A stretch of DNA of 44,481 nucleotides from an uncultured Robiginitomaculum sp. (GCA_938010385.1 CALLVD010000053.1:1-44481); one strand, 5' to 3'; counted from the first letter of the stretch, positions 8,690 to 42,470 are shown. Notes: generated by a model not told the origin, from the sequence alone. Numbers and translations are program-made.

Positions 8690-9324
8690 CCGGCGTCTTT
8701 AGGGCCGTAATCGTAATTGCCGCCGCGTTCCAGTGCGCGCAAATAGGCGGGGCGTTTGTGAACCTTATCGACATATTCAAGGCAGCTGTCATAGCCCTTC
8801 AGCCGGCCGCGGGCCTTGCAGGCTTCCAGCGGGAAGATCATCATAATATCCGCGCCGGAAATCTCATCACCGGCAAACCAGTCATGACCGATAAGGTGGT
8901 ACTCAATATAGTCGATTTGCTTTTTTATCTCTTCGGTGATTTTCGGGTGCAGCGGCGCGCCCGCTTCGCCCAAAAGCCCGACATAGAGAGAGAGCAGGAG
9001 CGGCAGTATCACCGAGCCTTCAGAGGCGTGCATGAATTGTGTATAAAGATCAAAGGCGTCGCTGCCCTGCGGCGGGATCATTTTCCCGTCACCGTGATTG
9101 CGGATTAAATACTCAACAATCGCGCCGGTCTCCGCAATGACTTTATCGCCGTACGTAATGACCGGGGATTTACCCAGCGGATGAATGGCTTTCAGCTCTG
9201 ACGGCGCCAAATTGGTGACGGGGTCGCGTTGATAGTGGCGAATTTCATACTCAAGACCAAGTTCCTCAAGAAGCCAGAGAACCCGCTGTGACCGGGAATT
9301 ATTCAGATGGTGAACTGTAATCAT
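8686..9324 (-). CDS. glutathione S-transferase family protein
   Basis: The start at 9324 is preceded by CAGGAAAC and gives 212 residues; an upstream extension to 9363 is not needed. The N-terminus MITVHHLNNSRSQRVLWLLE is the GST site of the type with S-R-S-x-R near residue 10. It is followed by HPLGKSPVI and then AETGAIVEYLI (about 63-75), the E-[ST]-G glutathione contact. The helical C-terminal domain includes DWFAGDEISGADIMM. It is convergent with another GST and shares bases with its stop codon. The two proteins differ clearly, so they are not a recent duplication. Confidence 0.88.
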   Translation of the reverse strand: MITVHHLNNSRSQRVLWLLEELGLEYEIRHYQRDPVTNLAPSELKAIHPLGKSPVITYGDKVIAETGAIVEYLIRNHGDGKMIPPQGSDAFDLYTQFMHASEGSVILPLLLSLYVGLLGEAGAPLHPKITEEIKKQIDYIEYHLIGHDWFAGDEISGADIMMIFPLEACKARGRLKGYDSCLEYVDKVHKRPAYLRALERGGNYDYGPKDAG

Positions 9325-32558: not shown

Positions 32559-32880
32559 CCCTGCAATTTCCGGCAGGCAGGGGAAATATCCGCGCGCAAC
32601 TGTAAAACATTAGGGCAGGGCATAGCTCCGGACCGGCGGACGTATTCTGATGCCGGCGGTTTGTTTATGCATGCGTTGCGGCCGGCTGTGATCTTTCGGC
32701 GGTGACACATTAAGGATTGAAGGCCCGACCAGGCGTCATATGAGCAGGAAAAATTTGCCCGCTTATTTAACGCTCGCTGCCACCCTTCCTATCAGGTTTA
32801 AGCAGAGCGTACTCTATGCCGTTAACCATTTGTTTTTCTTAATTCTTAATACACTGTACATAACAGAAGAGAGTTTTGAG
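32559..32880 (+). other. 322-base leader region of the Amt-kinase gene
   Basis: No gene is supported here. A frame from 32740 is in phase with the Amt protein, but the family N-terminus lies at 32881. The first half is GC-rich (short CCTGC/GCAGG stem near 32561-32577) and may serve as a weak end for the dGTPase-like transcript. The second half is AT-rich (32815-32870) and is the likely promoter region. I searched for a sigma-54 site (TGGCAC-N5-TTGCA) and for known riboswitch cores and saw none. Confidence 0.4.
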
Positions 32881-35800
32881 ATGAATGACAGTTGGATTGT
32901 AATTGCGGCCTTTTTGGTATTTTTGATGCAGGCCGGGTTTTTACTGATTGAAGCCGGGTCTGTCCGCTCTAAAAATTCTGTAAATGTCGCTCAGAAAAAC
33001 GTCTCAGATTTGATTATCTGCGTTGCTTGCTATTCGCTCGTCGGCTTTGGGCTTATGTACGGCATGTCGGTTGGCGGTTATATCGGAATGGGCGGAGTCA
33101 AGAGCGCGCTTGAAAACCAAGGCGACTGGCCCGAAGTTCTGATCTTCAATTTAGCGTTCTGTTCTGTGGTTGCGACGATTGTTTCCGGCGCGGTGGCCGA
33201 GCGTATGCGAATTGGTGCCTATTTTGTCAGCACAGCCCTTGTTGCGATGTTGATCTACCCTGTCTTTGGTCATTGGGCGTGGGGAAATACGATTATCACA
33301 TCCAATGTGGCTTATCTGGCCAATTTAAACTTTGTTGACCATGCGGGCGGCATTGCGATTCATGCGCTGGGCGGGTTTTACGCGCTCGCGGCCATCCTTC
33401 TTTTAGGGCCGCGCAAGGGCCGTTTTGATGACGCCGGCCGGCCGCTGCCGATTTCAGGCTATAGTCCTGTTTTGGCCTTGGCCGGCGCCTTGATATTATT
33501 TGTGACTTGGATCCCCTTCAATACGGGCTCATTGGAATTAGGGTCTAAGCTGTTTGCGGATGTGGCCTTGGCAACCGTTATAGCCGGGTCGGCCGGCGGA
33601 TTGTTCGGTAAGATTGTCGGTTATAAATTACACAATAAAACGTTCGCGCCTGAGGCCAGTTTTAACGGCATTTTAGGCGGCCTTGTCGCAATCACGACCG
33701 GCGCCGTTTTCGTCGGCCCTGTCGGCGCATTTGTTGTCGGGAGCGCGGGCGGCGTAGCAGCTATTTTGGGCAATCATATCTTGCTCCATAAATTTAAAAT
33801 CGATGACCCTGTCGGCGTTGTTGGTGTTCACGGTTTGGCGGGCGTTGTCGGGGCTTTAATCTTCCCGCTTTTCGCTGTTACAGCGCTGCCGGCAGGGAGT
33901 GTTTTGTCGCAAATTTCTGCGCAGGCCTTTGGCACTTTCGTTTGTATTGCTTGGGCGATGTCAACCGGACTTTTAATTTTCGGCATCTTAAAAAAGGTCG
34001 GCTTTCTGCGCGTCAGTGATGCGCAAGAGCATTTGGGTCTGAATGTCGGTGAACATATGCCCGAGATTAGCGAAGAACATCTTGAAGCCGCCTATGAAGC
34101 CTCAAAAAAAGCGGTTGCCGGCGGCGCTGTGGCGCAAAGCTATGAGACCGGCTCGGTCGGCTCTGAAATCGGCTTGGCGCTCTCCTCTATGTCGGATGAA
34201 AACAAGCGCCTGAGTGAAGAAGCGGTTATGCGCTCTGCCAGATTTTCTGACGCGACGAACAGCCTGACCGACGGATTAATCATTTTTGATGAAAATGACA
34301 TTGTCACCGAGGTGAACAGCGCCTTCAGAAAAATCATGGCCAAGCTTGATATAGATTGTTTCGTCGGAATGCGCAGGGAAGATCTGCTGCGCAAACTTGG
34401 GGAAAAAGCCGTTTTGAACACGGCAGGCGTAACGCATGACGGCTGGATGGAATCTTACCTGTCACAGTCATCGGAGTCCTACATTCAGGAAGAAGAGCTT
34501 AAGATTGGCGATGAGTATTATATCCGGCGTCTTCAATCAGTTCCGACCGGCGGGAAAATCGTCACAATGACAAATGTATCGGTTATTCGCGAAGCGCTGC
34601 AAAAAGCGAAAACAGCGGAAAAAGCCAAGTCAGAGTTTCTCGCGAATATGAGCCACGAAATTCGTACGCCCATGAACGGCATTATCGGTATGACCGAGCT
34701 TTTGTCCCGGTCTGAATTGGACAATCGCCAAAGACATTTTGTAGAGACAATCTCAAGTTCAGGCACCGCATTGATGACGATTATCAATGACATTTTGGAC
34801 TTTTCAAAAATTGAAGCGGGCAAAGTTACGCTGAACCCTGTTCCCTTTGTGTTGCGCGACAGCATTGATGATGTAACGACCATGCTGTCAAGTTCTGCAT
34901 CAGATAAGAACCTTGAATTGCTTGTGCGTATGCAGCCTGACCTGCCGTCAACCTATGTCGGTGACGTTGGACGTTTCAGGCAGATAATGACAAATCTGAT
35001 TGGCAATGCGTTGAAATTTACGCATTTCGGTCATGTGCTTGTTGATATTTCCGGCGACGTTAACGGCGATAATGTCGATTTGAAAATTCAGGTCGAAGAT
35101 ACGGGCATCGGCATTCCTGCGGATCAAATTGACGGCGTGTTCCAAAAGTTTGAACAGGTCGACAGCTCTACCACCCGTCAATATGAGGGCACAGGTTTGG
35201 GGCTTTCAATTTCCTCAAATCTTGTGAACTTGATGGGCGGTCAGATTGAGGTTCAGAGCACGCAGGGAAAGGGCAGCGTCTTTACAATTAACCTAAGCTT
35301 GCCCCGTCATCAGGATTTAAAGGTTGTCAAAAAACTGCCGCTTGAAATCATTGGCGCGAGCGTTTTGATTGTCGATGATAATATTGTTAATCGCAATATT
35401 TTGCGTGAACAGGTTAAACATTGGAAATGCCGTAATGTCGCCGTTGAAAGTGGGGCTAAAGCCCTGAAAGTCATGGAAAATGCCAAGGAAAAAGGCATTA
35501 AAATCGACCTGATTATTACGGATTATCAAATGCCCGGTATGAATGGCGAAGAGTTGTTTATGAGTTTGCAAAAGCAGCCTGAATTTGCTGATGTACCGGT
35601 TATTATGCTGACATCGGTCAATGATGACAGAATGGTGCGTCGCCTTCAAAGAGCGGGATTGAACGCCATTCTGACAAAGCCGGCCAGATCCTCAATGCTT
35701 TTGAATACTATCACAACGGCGCTCTTTAATGCGCAGAAGCAGTCTGACAATCCTGTGAACGCTAAAGTGAATTTGTCGGAAGGTCGCGTTACGTCCATTA

Positions 35801-36282
35801 CGGATGCTCTGCCGGCGCCGCGCCGCGAAGTTGCCAGAGGTGTTGAACGGAGAAAAACGCCGCGGGCCGAAGCCCCGACTCTGCGAGGTTTGGATGTTTT
35901 AATCGCTGAAGATAATGAAACCAACCAGACCTATATCAAATATATTATGGAAGAGCTTGGCCTGACCTTTAAAATTGTTCCGACAGGGCGCGCCGCCGTT
36001 GATTACTGGCGCAGCGAAAAGCCGTCCGTTATTTTAATGGATGTCTCGATGCCTGAAATGAACGGTTATGAAGCCACGCGGATTATTCGCGAGGAAGAGC
36101 GAAAACACAATATTGTTCGCACGCCTATCATTGCTGTCACGGCTCACACATTGGCCGGGGATGAGGAGCATTGTCTGGAGGTCGGCATGGATGATTTCTT
36201 ATCGAAGCCGGTATCTATATTCGGATTGAAGTCAAAAATTGAGCAGTGGTGCGATGTCGAAATTAATGAAAACAGCGCATAG
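32881..36282 (+). CDS. ammonium channel fused to a PAS hybrid histidine kinase with two receivers
   Basis: One frame of 1133 residues. Residues 1-390 form an Amt/MEP/Rh channel: [20 protein letters not shown] at the first helix, [22 protein letters not shown], then Asp153 and His161 ([14 protein letters not shown]) and His317 ([10 protein letters not shown]). Thus the twin-histidine pore and the binding aspartate are kept, so transport is possible. A linker (about 400-450) leads to a PAS domain (about 453-570), an H-box with His592 ([14 protein letters not shown]), ATPase boxes [17 protein letters not shown] and GTGLGLSI, then receivers with Asp881 ([11 protein letters not shown]) and Asp1054 ([11 protein letters not shown]). 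The start at 32881 is chosen because the channel family begins there; the frame extends back to 32740. It would sense or carry ammonium at the inner membrane and signal inside. No glnK is adjacent. Confidence 0.93.
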
Positions 36283-36505: not shown

Positions 36506-37036
36506 TTAGTTATCCAGCCATCTGAGTTTTGCTAACGGATATCCTAAATACCATTTGGAGCGCTCCAGGATTATTCTGGTTTTGATATTTTTTATCCCTA
36601 AGTCATCTTGGCTTGAAATTTGGTCAAGCAGGTTGTTGAGTGATTGGGTATTGGAGCAGCAAGTGAAAGCGATGTAATCTGACTCGCCGGTTACCCTCAA
36701 ACAATCCATGAATTCCGGGTGCTGATTTATCTCAGTTTCAAAGCGTTTTCTGGCTGCAAGCGTATTATCGCTCAATGCAAATTCTACGTAAGCCAAAACA
36801 TGTTCGACCAGTCTGTCGAGATCTAAGTCCGTGTGAAAACTAACAAAATACCCGGCGTCTTTAAGCGCCTTAACGCGCTGAAAGCAGGCGCTTGGCGACA
36901 GTCCGACACGGTCCGCAAGCTCTTGATTTGAGATGTCTGATTGCAGATGCGTAATCGAGAGTATCTTTCGATTAATTGCATCTAATTTTATATTCTTCAA
37001 TTTGACTGACATTTCGACAATAAATCTTCTTTTCAT
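36506..37036 (-). CDS. Lrp/AsnC-family transcriptional regulator
   Basis: 176 residues. The N-terminal helix-turn-helix reads LDAINRKILSITHLQSDISN, then LADRVGLSPSACFQRVKAL (about 35-55). The RAM ligand domain includes AYVEFALSD and RVTGESDYIAFTCC. A start at 37012 (MSVKLKNIKLDAI) is as likely as 37036. It is divergent from the NCS1/hydantoinase operon with 97 bases between, so it probably senses a related metabolite and controls that operon. The inducer is unknown. Confidence 0.9.
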   Translation of the reverse strand: MKRRFIVEMSVKLKNIKLDAINRKILSITHLQSDISNQELADRVGLSPSACFQRVKALKDAGYFVSFHTDLDLDRLVEHVLAYVEFALSDNTLAARKRFETEINQHPEFMDCLRVTGESDYIAFTCCSNTQSLNNLLDQISSQDDLGIKNIKTRIILERSKWYLGYPLAKLRWLDN

Positions 37037-37086
37037 GGTGACTGCAAGAATGAAATAGTTGCGCGATCAGGCATCCATATTTGATA

Positions 37087-37100
37087 GCTAATTTGTTAGC
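37087..37100. promoter_or_regulatory. inverted repeat in the AsnC / permease promoter region
   Basis: GCTAA-TTTG-TTAGC lies 34 bases before the permease start, in an AT-rich divergent region. A further GCTAGC palindrome lies at 37107-37112. AsnC/Lrp proteins bind short imperfect palindromes of this kind in A/T-rich DNA. Binding is not shown. Confidence 0.45.
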
Positions 37101-37133
37101 GGATGCGCTAGCTTGTTTTGAGAGGAGACGCAC

Positions 37134-38462
37134 ATGGAAGATATAAGCGAGTTTGCCGCAGTACCAATCCGGCAGGATCAACTTGTCGCCTGGCCTCGTG
37201 TCGCCGCGATTGCAGCGATGGTAGGGTTTTCACTCCCGACCTTTTTAACCGGGCTTGAAGTGTTCGCGGGATTGTCGCCAATTGATGCGATGTGGGCTTT
37301 GTTCTGGGGGTCGCTCATCGTTACTGCGGTAGGCTGCATAACCGGCTACATCGGTGCCACTGATCGTATGAGCTCATATTTGCTTGTGCGGGTCGCGTTT
37401 GGCGACAAAGGCGCGGCAATAGTAAACATCGCTTTCGCCGTGAGCTTGATGGGCTGGTTTGGCCTGAACATAAATTTGTTTATGGACACTGTTGGGCGTT
37501 TAGTGCTGGACTTATGGGGCCTGGCCGTCCCGGATATTGCTCTTGCGATAATGGCTAGCTTTTGCATGACCGTAACGACCTTAATCGGATTTAAGGCGAT
37601 CAACCTCTTATCAACGTTTCTCGTCCCGGTATTAATCGTCGTGACTGTGTTATTCGTGAAATCCGCCTTTACCAATCACGGACTGACAGACTTTTTTGCC
37701 TTGGAAAAACCCGCGCGCGCTGTGGGCGATAATGCAATGACGATAGGGGACGGAATTTCTTGGGTTGTTGGGGCCGTGATTATCGGCGCAATTATCTTGC
37801 CCGACATCACGCGTTTTATCCGGCAAAAATCGGGCGCTGTTTATACCGCTATCCTCTGTTATTTATTCGTCCAACTGTTAGTCATGATAGCGGCAGGATT
37901 GGCCGGTGTGAGTTCAGGTGTGTTTGAGAACTATTTTGACGCGCAAGGCGTGAGCCGCACAGATGTTATACTTAAGCTCATGCTGGACGTTAATCTCGGT
38001 TTTGGCGCCTTTGTTATAATCATCGCGGGGAGCTGGATTTTAAACTCTCTTAATTTGTACAGCACGGTGCTCAGCGCCAAAGCGACCTTCCCTAAACTGA
38101 ACACAAAATGGCTGACAATTGGGCTGGGCATCGTTGGCGTAGTCGCGGCACTTTTAAACATTTTGGGCGCGTTCGAGATATTCCTTTGGTATTTGTCAAT
38201 TATTTTCATCCCCGTCGCAGGGGTCTTAATCATCGACCGTTTTTTTATAAGGCCGGGCACTTACAAGCTTGAAACGCTTAAGGACAATAACACATTAAAC
38301 GGCCCCGCTTTCTTGGCTTGGGCGATAGGCGCGATAGTCGCTGTTTTAGCCGATCGTGGCACGTTACCAAACCTCAGCGGGATTGGCGCGATAGATGCGC
38401 TGGTGCTGAGCGCGGTGCTTTATTTTATTTTTGCCAAACTCAGCAAAAGGCGCGTCTCATGA
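37134..38462 (+). CDS. NCS1-family nucleobase/hydantoin permease (CodB-like)
   Basis: 442 residues with about 12 membrane helices, starting behind GAGAGGAGACGCAC. Early residues show AAMVGFSLPTFLTGLEVF (about 26-43) and a GLNINLFMD segment at the substrate-helix position; GAIILPDITRFIRQKS lies in the middle. The family moves cytosine, purines, allantoin or hydantoins by cation symport. Its TGA overlaps the HyuA-like ATG (ATGA). From the neighbours a cyclic ureide or thiohydantoin is more likely than cytosine, but this is inference. Confidence 0.85.
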   Translation: MEDISEFAAVPIRQDQLVAWPRVAAIAAMVGFSLPTFLTGLEVFAGLSPIDAMWALFWGSLIVTAVGCITGYIGATDRMSSYLLVRVAFGDKGAAIVNIAFAVSLMGWFGLNINLFMDTVGRLVLDLWGLAVPDIALAIMASFCMTVTTLIGFKAINLLSTFLVPVLIVVTVLFVKSAFTNHGLTDFFALEKPARAVGDNAMTIGDGISWVVGAVIIGAIILPDITRFIRQKSGAVYTAILCYLFVQLLVMIAAGLAGVSSGVFENYFDAQGVSRTDVILKLMLDVNLGFGAFVIIIAGSWILNSLNLYSTVLSAKATFPKLNTKWLTIGLGIVGVVAALLNILGAFEIFLWYLSIIFIPVAGVLIIDRFFIRPGTYKLETLKDNNTLNGPAFLAWAIGAIVAVLADRGTLPNLSGIGAIDALVLSAVLYFIFAKLSKRRVS

Positions 38463-39997
38463 GAATAGGTATTGATGTCGGCGGAACGCATACGGATGCG
38501 GTCATTCTGAACGGCGATAAAGTCATTGCAGCAACAAAGTCTTTGACAACATCAGATGTCGTTTCGGGCATTTCCAATGCGCTGGACGAGATATTGTTAT
38601 CCGGAGGCGTTCGGGTTGAGCAAATTCAAACTGTGATGATCGGGACAACGCAATTTACCAATGCCATTATCGAGCGAAAATCACTGTCGCGTATGGCAGT
38701 CATTCGGGTCGGCTTGCCCTCAGGACGCGGCATGCCGCCCATGGTCGATTGGCCTCATGACATGCACGAGGCGATTAACGCGCAGGTCCATATGATTCAC
38801 GGCGGCTATCTATATGACGGTCATCCACTTTCTGATTTGAGAGAGTCTGAAATTACTGCCGTTATTCGGGCGCTTAAAATGGAAAATATAAAGAACATCG
38901 CGATTTCGTCAGCCTTCTCCCCTATGAATGCGGAACCTGAAAACAAGGTCAGCCAAGCGATTTTAGAAGCAATCCCTGATGCGCAACTGACGCTGTCGCA
39001 TCAATTCGGCAGGCTCGGTCTTCTTGAGCGTGAGAACGCCGCCATTATGAATACGTCGCTCTTACCATTTGCAAAACACGTAGTGGATGCATTTCTGGCA
39101 GCACTCAAGTCACATGGTCTGACGTGTCCCGCATTCATCAGCCAGAATGACGGAACGCTGATGAGCTCCGAATTCGTGCGCCGTTTTCCTGCTCTGACAT
39201 TTTCGTCCGGTCCGACAAATTCACTGCGGGGTGCCTATAAACTCACGGGTCTTAAAGAGGCAATTGTCGTCGACATTGGGGGCACAACATCTGATATCGG
39301 TGTGCTGCAAGACGGGTTCCCAAGAGAGTCCAATGTCGTGGTGAATATTGGCGGCATCAGAACAAACTTTCGTATGCCGGATATATTGGCCATTGGATTG
39401 GGCGGTGGCAGCCATGTCAGCGATGATGGCAAAACGATTGGTCCGCAATCAGTGGGGCACCGTCTTGTTCATGATGGATTGGTTTTTGGCGGGAACACCC
39501 TAACGGCGACCGATATTATTGTAGCCTCCGGCGTGCGCGATATTGGCGTCCCGGCCAAGGTTGCCGGGCTTACGTCTAATCTTATAGAGAAAGCAACGGA
39601 TACTATGCACGCAATGTTGGACCGAGCCATAGATATGATGAAGCCCGGCGGGAAGGCATTGCCCGTGATTTTAGTGGGGGGAGGCGCAGTTCTTGTGACA
39701 GGCGACCTTAAAGCTGCCTCAAAGCTCTACCGTCCGGAAAATGCTGGCGTTGCAAATGCTATTGGGGCAGCCATCGCGCAGGTCGGGGGCGAGTCTGAGC
39801 GCATGTTGTCCTACCGTAATATCTCCCGCGAAGATGCCATTGCAGAAGTCACAGCGGCGGCCACAGAGCGTGCACTGGCAGCAGGGGCAGACCGCGAAAC
39901 TATTCGCGCTGTCGATATCGAAGAAACGGCCATCCCTTATATGGATGAAGGCGCAACCCGGGTGAGAGTCAAGGTCATAGGGGAGCTTCGGACATGA
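38459..39997 (+). CDS. hydantoinase/oxoprolinase family protein (HyuA-like)
   Basis: 512 residues from the ATG that overlaps the permease stop. The ASKHA-type fold is visible: phosphate 1 MRIGIDVGGTHTDAVIL (1-17), then IGTTQFTNAI, GRLGLLERENAAIMN, FSSGPTNSLRGA, phosphate 2 VVDIGGTTSDIG and AIGLGGGSHV. Oxoprolinase-type HyuA subunits are about 690 residues, so this is the short form that pairs with DUF917 rather than with HyuB. ATP-dependent ring opening of a five-membered cyclic amide is likely. Its stop overlaps the DUF917 start by four bases. Confidence 0.88.
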   Translation: MRIGIDVGGTHTDAVILNGDKVIAATKSLTTSDVVSGISNALDEILLSGGVRVEQIQTVMIGTTQFTNAIIERKSLSRMAVIRVGLPSGRGMPPMVDWPHDMHEAINAQVHMIHGGYLYDGHPLSDLRESEITAVIRALKMENIKNIAISSAFSPMNAEPENKVSQAILEAIPDAQLTLSHQFGRLGLLERENAAIMNTSLLPFAKHVVDAFLAALKSHGLTCPAFISQNDGTLMSSEFVRRFPALTFSSGPTNSLRGAYKLTGLKEAIVVDIGGTTSDIGVLQDGFPRESNVVVNIGGIRTNFRMPDILAIGLGGGSHVSDDGKTIGPQSVGHRLVHDGLVFGGNTLTATDIIVASGVRDIGVPAKVAGLTSNLIEKATDTMHAMLDRAIDMMKPGGKALPVILVGGGAVLVTGDLKAASKLYRPENAGVANAIGAAIAQVGGESERMLSYRNISREDAIAEVTAAATERALAAGADRETIRAVDIEETAIPYMDEGATRVRVKVIGELRT

Positions 39998-41118
39998 GCG
40001 AGACATTAACGCATATTGGCCGGGAGCATTTGGACGACTTGGCGCTGGGCGCTGTTTTCTTAGCAACGGGCGGCGGCGGAGACCCCTATGTGCCCAAGCT
40101 CATTACTGCAGAAGCCATAAAGACCTTTGGCCCTGTGCAATTGCTACCGCCGCAAGACCTCGCCGATGACGCCTTTATTGTTCCTGTCGGAAGCGTTGGT
40201 GCGCCGACAGTTAGCTTAGAGCTTTTGCCATCTGTTGAGGAAGCCGCAGAGACGTTGAATGCGTTTGAGAAATTTGTAGGCCGCAAAATCGACGCAGTGA
40301 CATCTTTTGAGATTGGCGGAGGTAATTCGGTTATTCCGATTTGCGCGGCGGCAGCCAAGGGTTTGCCGATTGTTGACGGTGACGGCATGGGCCGCGCCTT
40401 ACCGGAAGCTCAGATGATGTCCTATCCCATTGGAGGTGTAAAACCGACACCCGCGCTGGCCTATGACTATGCGGGCAATATCGCCACATTTCAAACGGAT
40501 ACAACTGAAACATATGAGCGCCATATACGCGCATTTTCTATGTCAGCCGGGGGGATGATTACTGCCGCAGAGCACGCGATGACCGGGCGTCAGCTTAAGG
40601 ACACAATTATCCCCGGAACGGTCAGCTTCTCCGTAAAACTGGGACGGCTATTGAGAGAGAAACGCGGCCAAGCCCCCGAGCTTGAAAAACCGCTGGCTGC
40701 ATTGTTTGCGGACTCAATTTACGGAGAATGCCGGCTCCTCTATACAGGAAAGGTCATTGATAAGACGACCCGCATAATTGGCGGCTATGATATTGGAGAG
40801 GCGACAATTGAGAGCTTTGAAAGCTCTCAGGAAAACCTTTCTGTCAATATCAAGAACGAATATTTGCTCGCAAAACAAGGCGACCGTGTCTGTGCGAGCG
40901 TGCCCGATCTGATAACCATTGTCGATTTTGAAACAGGCACGCCGATAAATGCCGAGCGCCTCCGCTACGGTCAGCGCGTCGCCGTATTCGCCACAGCATG
41001 CCCGGATTTTTATCGCTCCGAAACAGCGTTGAAAGTCGTAGCGCCGCGGTGTTTTGGCTTCGATATTGATTACGTGCCGTTAGAAAAGCTCCGGTCAGCA
41101 AGCCGGCTCAAGGCCTAG
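39994..41118 (+). CDS. DUF917 family protein (S-methyl-thiohydantoin desulfurase-like)
   Basis: 374 residues starting at the ATGA junction with HyuA. The opening LALGAVFLATGGGGDPYVPK, then PVGSVGAPTVSLELL, SFEIGGGNSVIPICAAA, GLPIVDGDGMGRALPEAQMM, and the ending FGFDIDYVPLE are typical of DUF917 (COG3535). The Pfam name I recall for the domain is S-methyl thiohydantoin desulfurase N-terminal. It commonly follows a HyuA-like gene. Cofactor is not evident from the sequence. It completes a transport-to-degradation cassette. Confidence 0.87.
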   Translation: MSETLTHIGREHLDDLALGAVFLATGGGGDPYVPKLITAEAIKTFGPVQLLPPQDLADDAFIVPVGSVGAPTVSLELLPSVEEAAETLNAFEKFVGRKIDAVTSFEIGGGNSVIPICAAAAKGLPIVDGDGMGRALPEAQMMSYPIGGVKPTPALAYDYAGNIATFQTDTTETYERHIRAFSMSAGGMITAAEHAMTGRQLKDTIIPGTVSFSVKLGRLLREKRGQAPELEKPLAALFADSIYGECRLLYTGKVIDKTTRIIGGYDIGEATIESFESSQENLSVNIKNEYLLAKQGDRVCASVPDLITIVDFETGTPINAERLRYGQRVAVFATACPDFYRSETALKVVAPRCFGFDIDYVPLEKLRSASRLKA

Positions 41119-41294: not shown

Positions 41295-42470
41295 CTAAGC
41301 CTTCCGCACCGGGGCGGCGTGCAAGGCGGCAGCTACGGCTTCGCGCAAGGGTTTAGGTTGGTAGTTAATATCATAAAGCGTCGGTCGCTTAATCACACCG
41401 TCTTTGCGTGGCCACCAAGTTTGCAGCCATGTATGCCGGTCACACAGCCCCCATGCGAGAATATCTTTGGTTTGCTCATAGCTGAGCATCAAGTCCAGAA
41501 AAGCTTTGCCGTAGGCGGCCACTTCCTGATCGCGTATTTCGGGGTTTCGGTTAAGCCCGGTGTCATTGACGTCAAATTCACTGACGATCAAATTGTAATC
41601 CATGCCAACAATTTCATCGATAAAGGCTTGCCATTCTTTGGCTTGGGGATCCGGGTAGCCTGTTTTTGAGTTGCCGACGTTTATTCCTAAATGACCCTGA
41701 ATGCCAAAGGTGTCGATAGGGGTTCCGCGCTTTCGAAATCCTTCGAGCAGTTTTAATACGCCGTAACGATGCGATTCATTCCCATGTTCCCAAATCATGT
41801 AATCATTATAAACAAGTTCCGCATGAGGCGCGAATTCTCTCGCTTTATGAAATGCAAAATCGACGATTTGCTCGCCGCCATGCTCGACAAAGACGGTGTC
41901 GCGCATTTTGCCGGTCTTGGGGTCAATCGTTTCATTGACGACATCCCAGGAGTAGATTTTCTGTCCGTAATGCTGCGTCAGGTTTTTGATATAGTTTGCG
42001 ACAAAGTTTTCCATATCACTGCGGCCGGCAAAAGATTTTTCGGAAACCCAATCAGGCGTAAATTCCATACGGTTCCAAAGCAGGACATGGCCGCGAAAGT
42101 CCATTTGCTTGGCTTCACCCCACGCCACAAGTTCATCTCCGCGAGACAATTGCATGGGGCCGGATGCGGGCTGAATCGTGTAAAGCTTATGCTCATTCTC
42201 AGCCACTAATGTATCGCACTCGGCCGCGATAATTTTCAGGTAATCGGCATCTTTAAACGAGTCAGATCCTATAGCCGTGCCAAACCGAAGGCCCTTTGAC
42301 TTTGCTATCGAGGATAGGGACGTCTCGGGCAGGGCGGGCGATTTGTCGGGCGCCGGAATGAAGGCAGACTTGCCTTGATCCAAATCTGATATTTCGGACA
42401 CGCCCGCACACGCCGTCAGCGCCAAAAGGCTTCCGGTACCCGCCAAGAAACTTCTTCGATTAGTAATCAT
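41295..42470 (-). CDS. GH10 endo-1,4-beta-xylanase, Tat-exported lipoprotein
   Basis: 391 residues. The N-terminus MITNRRSFLAGTGSLLALTA then CAG has a twin-arginine motif and a lipobox L-T-A-C, so it is probably exported folded and lipid-anchored. The TIM barrel shows GRSDMENFVANYI-type helices, ENEHKLYTIQP, HVLLWNR, the acid/base Glu180 in SWDVVNETI, GIQGHLGIN, and the nucleophile Glu298 in LIVSEFDV, ending CDRHTWLQTWWPRKDG. No carbohydrate-binding module is present. A LacI-type operator lies 28 bases upstream of the start. Confidence 0.94.
   Translation of the reverse strand: MITNRRSFLAGTGSLLALTACAGVSEISDLDQGKSAFIPAPDKSPALPETSLSSIAKSKGLRFGTAIGSDSFKDADYLKIIAAECDTLVAENEHKLYTIQPASGPMQLSRGDELVAWGEAKQMDFRGHVLLWNRMEFTPDWVSEKSFAGRSDMENFVANYIKNLTQHYGQKIYSWDVVNETIDPKTGKMRDTVFVEHGGEQIVDFAFHKAREFAPHAELVYNDYMIWEHGNESHRYGVLKLLEGFRKRGTPIDTFGIQGHLGINVGNSKTGYPDPQAKEWQAFIDEIVGMDYNLIVSEFDVNDTGLNRNPEIRDQEVAAYGKAFLDLMLSYEQTKDILAWGLCDRHTWLQTWWPRKDGVIKRPTLYDINYQPKPLREAVAAALHAAPVRKA

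Follow-up and report, generated by a model that had tools for sequence, protein, structure and literature searches.

ATP-dependent cyclic amidases of the HyuA-HyuB superfamily, such as the caprolactamase CapAB, 5-oxoprolinase and N-methylhydantoinase, combine a HyuA ATPase with HyuB, which uses an Asp-His-Asp-His metal set (PMC8453981). The CapA residues D11 and D295 are essential, with alanine mutants keeping 0.05% and 0.4% conversion, respectively (PMC8453981). DUF917 proteins, whose two domains are now named S-Me-THD_N and S-Me-THD_C (S-Me-THD-like N and C) in Pfam, have characterised relatives that carry NCBIfam names for sulfur removal from thiohydantoin rings. Genes of the NCS1, HyuA and DUF917 families have been recorded side by side, with no function given, in C. 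difficile (R20291_1615-1617; PMC12915319) and L. rhamnosus (PMC7513527). Here we describe such a cassette, with its own AsnC/Lrp regulator, in a stretch of 44,481 nucleotides from an uncultured Robiginitomaculum sp. (GCA_938010385.1, CALLVD010000053.1:1-44481; this whole stretch is the window). Its short HyuA and DUF917 are proposed to act together in opening a cyclic amide. In the searchable literature, which did not include the primary ergothioneine-pathway papers, no paper was found in which DUF917 was characterised together with HyuA.

The window cassette is a member of a common arrangement that is annotated elsewhere without function. The same three families lie side by side in cassettes of Peribacillus, Limosilactobacillus and Streptomycetaceae. 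However, the window branch has a divergent AsnC/Lrp gene and its relatives have TonB-dependent receptors and a TPR-sulfotransferase, while the order of HyuA and DUF917 differs in the Bacillota cassettes. Like members of the HyuA-HyuB superfamily, the cassette HyuA has the ATPase fold and the two aspartates essential at the ATP site, and ATP-driven opening of a cyclic amide would be expected here too. The cassette differs from this superfamily in the short HyuA and in having DUF917 in the place of HyuB. No resemblance between this DUF917 and HyuB was seen, and it has no conserved histidine for the metal set. With the desulfurases of ergothioneine breakdown (NF058529 and NF058532) the cassette DUF917 shares the two-domain Pfam family and core residues, but it belongs to a separate branch, reaches about one quarter of their cut-off scores or less and has other signature residues. 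The partner genes also differ, being HyuA in the cassette but thiourocanate hydratase and carbamoylase for the desulfurases. CV_3147 of Chromobacterium violaceum (2o3i) has the same fold as the cassette DUF917, but is a structural-genomics protein and gives no function.

Layout and conservation of the cassette

The original prediction placed an AsnC gene divergent from permease, HyuA and DUF917 genes joined by two ATGA overlaps, and both the coordinates and the Pfam matches agree with this layout (Table 1). It was also correct in describing a short HyuA of 512 residues without HyuB: the protein lacks the C-terminal part of the long form, and a Pfam scan found no HyuB gene or Hydantoinase_B domain in the cassette. 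The sole Hydantoinase_B match in the organism's own assembly (2.05 Mb, ~75% complete) covers a C-terminal piece and lies on a different contig, C106.

Table 1. Features of the cassette at window positions 36506-41118
Feature	Position	Strand	Basis or remark
AsnC/Lrp-family regulator, 176 aa	36506..37036	-	Divergent from operon; Pfam HTH_24, HTH_AsnC-type and AsnC_trans_reg over cut-off
Putative divergent promoter/operator region, 97 bp	37037..37133		Intergenic between AsnC/Lrp and NCS1
NCS1-family permease, 442 aa	37134..38462	+	Pfam Transp_cyt_pur
ATGA overlap, NCS1 stop / HyuA start	38459..38462	+	Sequence
Short HyuA, 512 aa, ATPase half of hydantoinase/oxoprolinase family	38459..39997	+	Pfam Hydant_A_N and Hydantoinase_A
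ATGA overlap, HyuA stop / DUF917 start	39994..39997	+	Sequence; -4 overlap kept in most related loci
DUF917 / S-Me-THD-like protein, 374 aa, HyuA-linked branch	39994..41118	+	Pfam S-Me-THD_N and S-Me-THD_C

The cassette is real and conserved. It is more than a chance assembly because the 4-base HyuA-DUF917 junction recurs in related loci and the three genes co-diverge. The junction is found in most orthologous and many distant loci, and the reverse gene order also occurs. Pairwise distance correlations between the three genes are 0.82-0.88 across 36 loci, against permutation maxima of 0.33-0.42, although shared ancestry alone can produce the same correlation.

The link between HyuA and DUF917 extends to individual residues. 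HyuA-linked DUF917s carry the signature E76, E106, N111, D130, E175 and R328, with E106 and D130 kept in 84 of 85 non-identical DUF917s that have an adjoining HyuA; these 84 also keep nearly all of the other four positions. DUF917s without a visible HyuA (n = 25) include desulfurase-type proteins with Q106 and V130, and those that bear the signature mostly come from short stretches or contig ends. D128, R134, R179, N288 and E289 form a core common to both branches, which are split in the tree by a long branch at 100% SH-aLRT. The conserved overlap, the occurrence of both gene orders and the signature tied to HyuA linkage support the predicted working partnership of HyuA and DUF917.

The clearest HyuA-less exception with long flanks, L092 on an Aestuariibacter chromosome (8949-9062), is a deletion relic. 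Alignment to its sister locus L089 revealed a single deletion running from inside asnC to inside DUF917, which removed NCS1 and HyuA together with most of asnC and the start of DUF917. This natural deletion indicates that the cassette is dispensable. No natural prokaryotic HyuA-DUF917 fusion was recognised in class and phylum searches. At the Halieaceae locus L101, the two genes are in frame across one TAG. Fold matches of the HyuA domain were obtained from a joined model of this locus.

Predicted structures and the ATP site

Both DUF917 domains pass the gathering score of 27, with 168 bits for S-Me-THD_N (PF06032) and 187.5 bits for S-Me-THD_C (PF20906). The AF2 model of the protein has a pLDDT of 93.7 and a pTM of 0.92. 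Its sole strong fold match is 2o3i (Z 42.9, 341 residues aligned, 26% identity); the next best, the cobalamin CbiG-like 3by5, reaches Z 5.1 and is uninformative. HyuB structures are not among the fold matches listed, which excludes nothing, and the DUF917 family alignment has no invariant histidine.

An active ATP site in HyuA is likely, because the fold matches and the aspartate pair essential in CapA is invariant. The ATPase subunit motifs, phosphate-1 (DxGGT) and phosphate-2 (D(V/M/I)GGT), are present as D6-V-G-G-T and D272-I-G-G-T. D6 and D272 are invariant in 44 of 44 short HyuAs and align with D11 and D295 of CapA, respectively. Fold comparison of the HyuA domain in the L101 model gave matches to acetophenone carboxylase 5l9w (Z 29.9) and caprolactamase 6yra (Z 28.5), as well as to acetone carboxylase and N-methylhydantoinase. 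The closest named model for the window HyuA is caprolactamase CapA, at 100 bits against a cut-off of 1000.

Proposed ring opening and candidate substrates

On balance, the operon probably serves to scavenge, as a nutrient, a small cyclic amide that stems from an amino acid or a dipeptide, with HyuA and DUF917 opening the ring. The original prediction of a cassette for regulated import and ring opening by partnered enzymes is supported by the overlap, the gene orders and the residue signature. We infer the reaction, the order of its steps and the class of substrate as follows. The compound would be brought over the outer membrane by the TonB-dependent receptor that adjoins the operon in most related bacteria, and over the inner membrane by NCS1. 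The short HyuA would then bind ATP and activate the ring amide, most simply by phosphorylating the lactim oxygen; this step is proposed because of the fold and the conserved ATP-site residues, and the same chemistry has been proposed for CapA and 5-oxoprolinase. DUF917, presumably made in step with HyuA owing to the overlapping gene, would take the role of HyuB, the ring being opened by attack of water on its activated carbon. Here the desulfurase step suggests a parallel, with water attacking an activated ring carbon and phosphate replacing sulfur. The product would feed into general amino-acid or peptide metabolism, and this would account for the absence of any further enzyme gene from the cassette. 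The AsnC/Lrp protein, a regulator of amino-acid type, would control the operon.

Several observations weigh against this proposal. The same role filled by a different protein stays an analogy for DUF917 and HyuB, because the fold matches listed show no relation between them and DUF917 has no invariant histidine. The joined L101 model (TAG read as Gln, unpaired alignment, one-residue linker), which served to examine the complex that the original prediction had considered possible, has confident domains, but its pTM is only 0.70 and the relative orientation of HyuA and DUF917 is therefore not predicted. Some clusters contain two or three DUF917 genes per HyuA, which a strict 1:1 partnership does not explain. 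The transport genes point in different directions: NCS1 suggests small heterocycles, but the TonB receptors and the Opp/Dpp neighbours suggest larger or peptide-like compounds. Furthermore, these genomes are rich in TonB receptors, and some of those near the cassette may lie there by chance.

The pTM of the joined model and the multiple DUF917 genes in some clusters would fit a rather unlikely alternative in which HyuA and DUF917 carry out separate steps instead of forming one enzyme, the overlap just balancing their synthesis. However, the HyuA-type signature is linked near-perfectly to an adjacent HyuA, and the clearest long-flank orphan is the deletion relic L092, both of which argue against this alternative. 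It is highly improbable that DUF917 is a thiohydantoin desulfurase in the breakdown of ergothioneine, thiohistidine or thiohydantoins. The original prediction had suggested such a source for the substrate, but this reading was rejected, as scores, partner genes and conserved residues all disagree with it. In its favour, the Pfam family is named after S-methyl thiohydantoin desulfurase, and one actinobacterial cluster, on a Streptomycetaceae plasmid (L133, 9120-11757), has OsmC-family and cysteine-synthase-like genes between two DUF917s; the second of these is also far under the desulfurase cut-offs. Against it, the window DUF917 scores only 108.7 bits against 450 for S-methyl thiohydantoin desulfurase (NF058532) and 85.3 bits against 440 for thiohydantoin desulfurase (NF058529), while true thiohydantoin desulfurases used as controls score 591-603 bits in five genomes and 585-599 bits in two more. 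None of 62 relatives in set A1 comes near the desulfurase cut-offs (best E 1.6e-38). Where examined, the desulfurases over cut-off adjoin thiourocanate hydratase, the N-carbamoyl-glutamate hydrolase ErtE and a HAL-like lyase, with no HyuA near. No thiourocanate hydratase over cut-off was found in six cassette genomes (G000, G005, G031, G035, G040, G079), with the positive control G417 detected and the organism's own assembly ~75% complete; three of the six have a match at the level of an ordinary urocanase. Finally, the desulfurases have Q and V where the HyuA-linked proteins have E106 and D130.

If HyuA and DUF917 do open a ring together, hydantoin and cyclic dipeptide are two versions of the same explanation, and their probabilities lie inside that given to it. 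Each by itself is a possible but not a probable substrate. The NCS1 superfamily includes hydantoin and allantoin carriers, and the pair could act in the manner of ATP-dependent hydantoinases, converting a hydantoin (imidazolidine-2,4-dione) to an N-carbamoyl amino acid. Asp/Glu/hydantoin racemases in distant clusters are consistent with this, and hydantoin-type rings have also been proposed for DUF917 (PMC11055893). However, among the recurring genes of ~40 orthologous neighbourhoods no carbamoylase was recognised, although a real ergothioneine cluster carries one (ErtE). This leads to a slight preference for a ring that, once opened, can be used without a dedicated enzyme. A cyclic dipeptide (2,5-diketopiperazine) would be opened to a linear dipeptide and finished by ordinary peptidases, making extra enzymes unnecessary, and both Lrp-type regulation and TonB uptake fit such a substrate. 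DUF917 is enriched in cyclodipeptide-oxidase-like clusters (PMC11055893), and ring-opening genes for diketopiperazines were left unidentified in PMC3852281. Clusters of Haloferax, Qingshengfaniella and Mesorhizobium join HyuA-DUF917 with Opp/Dpp-type ABC transporters (SBP_bac_5, oligo_HPY). Conversely, the window branch has NCS1 instead of a peptide ABC carrier, family 5 substrate-binding proteins (SBP) bind non-peptides as well, and a DPP-IV-like peptidase neighbour occurs in one case only (L105). 5-Oxoproline (pyroglutamate) is an improbable substrate, even though HyuA belongs to the oxoprolinase superfamily and the product, glutamate, requires no further enzyme. Dedicated enzymes for 5-oxoproline exist in PxpABC and OPLAH (these were not searched for in this analysis). 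The closest named HyuA model is also CapA, and many annotated oxoprolinases are lactamases, as PMC6061476 warns.

A wider proposal, which is tentative, is that short HyuA and DUF917 form a second architecture of ATP-dependent cyclic-amide hydrolase across bacteria and archaea, with DUF917 replacing HyuB, and that in some branches it may act on cyclic dipeptides. If the proposed reaction is right, HyuA-DUF917 would be a new variant of ATP-dependent cyclic amidases. Soil, marine, gut and archaeal genomes commonly have DUF917 beside a short HyuA, annotated just as "DUF917 domain-containing protein". Proof that the two open rings with ATP would assign a function to a large number of genes. It would also provide candidates for genes that open diketopiperazines and similar rings, and would caution against naming thiohydantoin desulfurases from the Pfam label alone. 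In the marine clade the operon is short and testable, and comes with a regulator and receptors of its own.

Transport, regulation and genomic distribution

The NCS1 permease matches Transp_cyt_pur at 80.1 bits against a cut-off of 23.5, but stays below the cytosine permease equivalog (124 bits against 326). Its nearest solved structure, and the sole phmmer match at E <= 0.001, is cytosine permease 7qoa (E 2.7e-16). Both the HTH_AsnC and the AsnC_trans_reg (RAM) domains of the regulator are over their Pfam cut-offs. In the putative operator region, A/T-rich blocks (ACGAAATT..ATTCgATagaTAATT in relatives) are loosely conserved in the alignment and degenerate in the window. Blocks 5' of NCS1 and 5' of the receptor resemble each other, although too weakly for an operator claim. 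A conserved 11-mer considered as an operator candidate was rejected, as it turned out to be coding sequence.

Orthologues occur in more than 35 marine Alpha- and Gammaproteobacteria, and the same core is also present in Bacillota, actinobacteria and haloarchaea. The nearest orthologues, at 83-88% identity, are in Hellea-like and other Caulobacterales/Hyphomonadaceae metagenome-assembled genomes (MAGs). The orthologous clade has 100% SH-aLRT and also holds Litorimonas, Alteromonadales, Halieaceae and Sphingomonadaceae. Any DUF917 match is found in only 14 of 99 genomes (own and relatives), and this, with the spread of the clade over Caulobacterales, Alteromonadales, Halieaceae and Sphingomonadaceae, makes the cassette patchy and accessory. 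Distant HyuA-DUF917 relatives adjoin Opp/Dpp-type peptide ABC transporters, Asp/Glu/hydantoin racemases and one Lrp regulator, and different branches may use different rings.

Of 41 named related loci, 38 have HyuA, 35 have NCS1, 30 have a TonB-dependent receptor and 23 have AsnC; several receptor-less loci end at a contig edge. Where AsnC is matched, it mostly lies divergently beside the operon. The receptors belong to three families, of ~700-850 aa in Caulobacterales (beside the TPR-sulfotransferase), 1050 aa in Halieaceae and 853 aa in Alteromonas. Paraglaciecola and Aliiglaciecola have the receptor gene within the operon, flanked by AsnC and NCS1. The window has no such receptor, and no close receptor copy was found in its own ~75% complete assembly (best match 39%). 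Between DUF917 and the TonB receptor, the TPR-sulfotransferase gene (Sulfotransfer_3) is seen repeatedly, as in L068 (10098-11651) and the other members of cluster c5, which comprises 20 loci.

Some individual loci depart from the common layout. In Robiginitomaculum antarcticum (L073, 6618-7454), the NCS1 gene matches residues 145-442 only, other genes lie directly upstream of the shortened permease, and there is no AsnC match at the locus. HyuA and DUF917 matches are in several pieces in a Pseudomonadales MAG (L104, 7400-10046), reflecting decay or assembly error. A ~990-aa protein adjoins HyuA-DUF917 in two alphaproteobacterial loci (L061, 11233-14214; L063, 10670-13648), being UvrA-like by Pfam in the former and from the same cluster in the latter.

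Downstream of the window cassette, a GH10 glycoside hydrolase gene (41295-42470, minus strand) occupies the place where close relatives hold the sulfotransferase and TonB receptor. Directly 5' of the cassette (32740-36282, plus strand) lies a gene for a protein of 1180 aa, in which an ammonium transporter domain is fused to a histidine kinase and two receiver domains. This product appears to be an ammonium sensor adjoining what is likely a nitrogen-scavenging operon.

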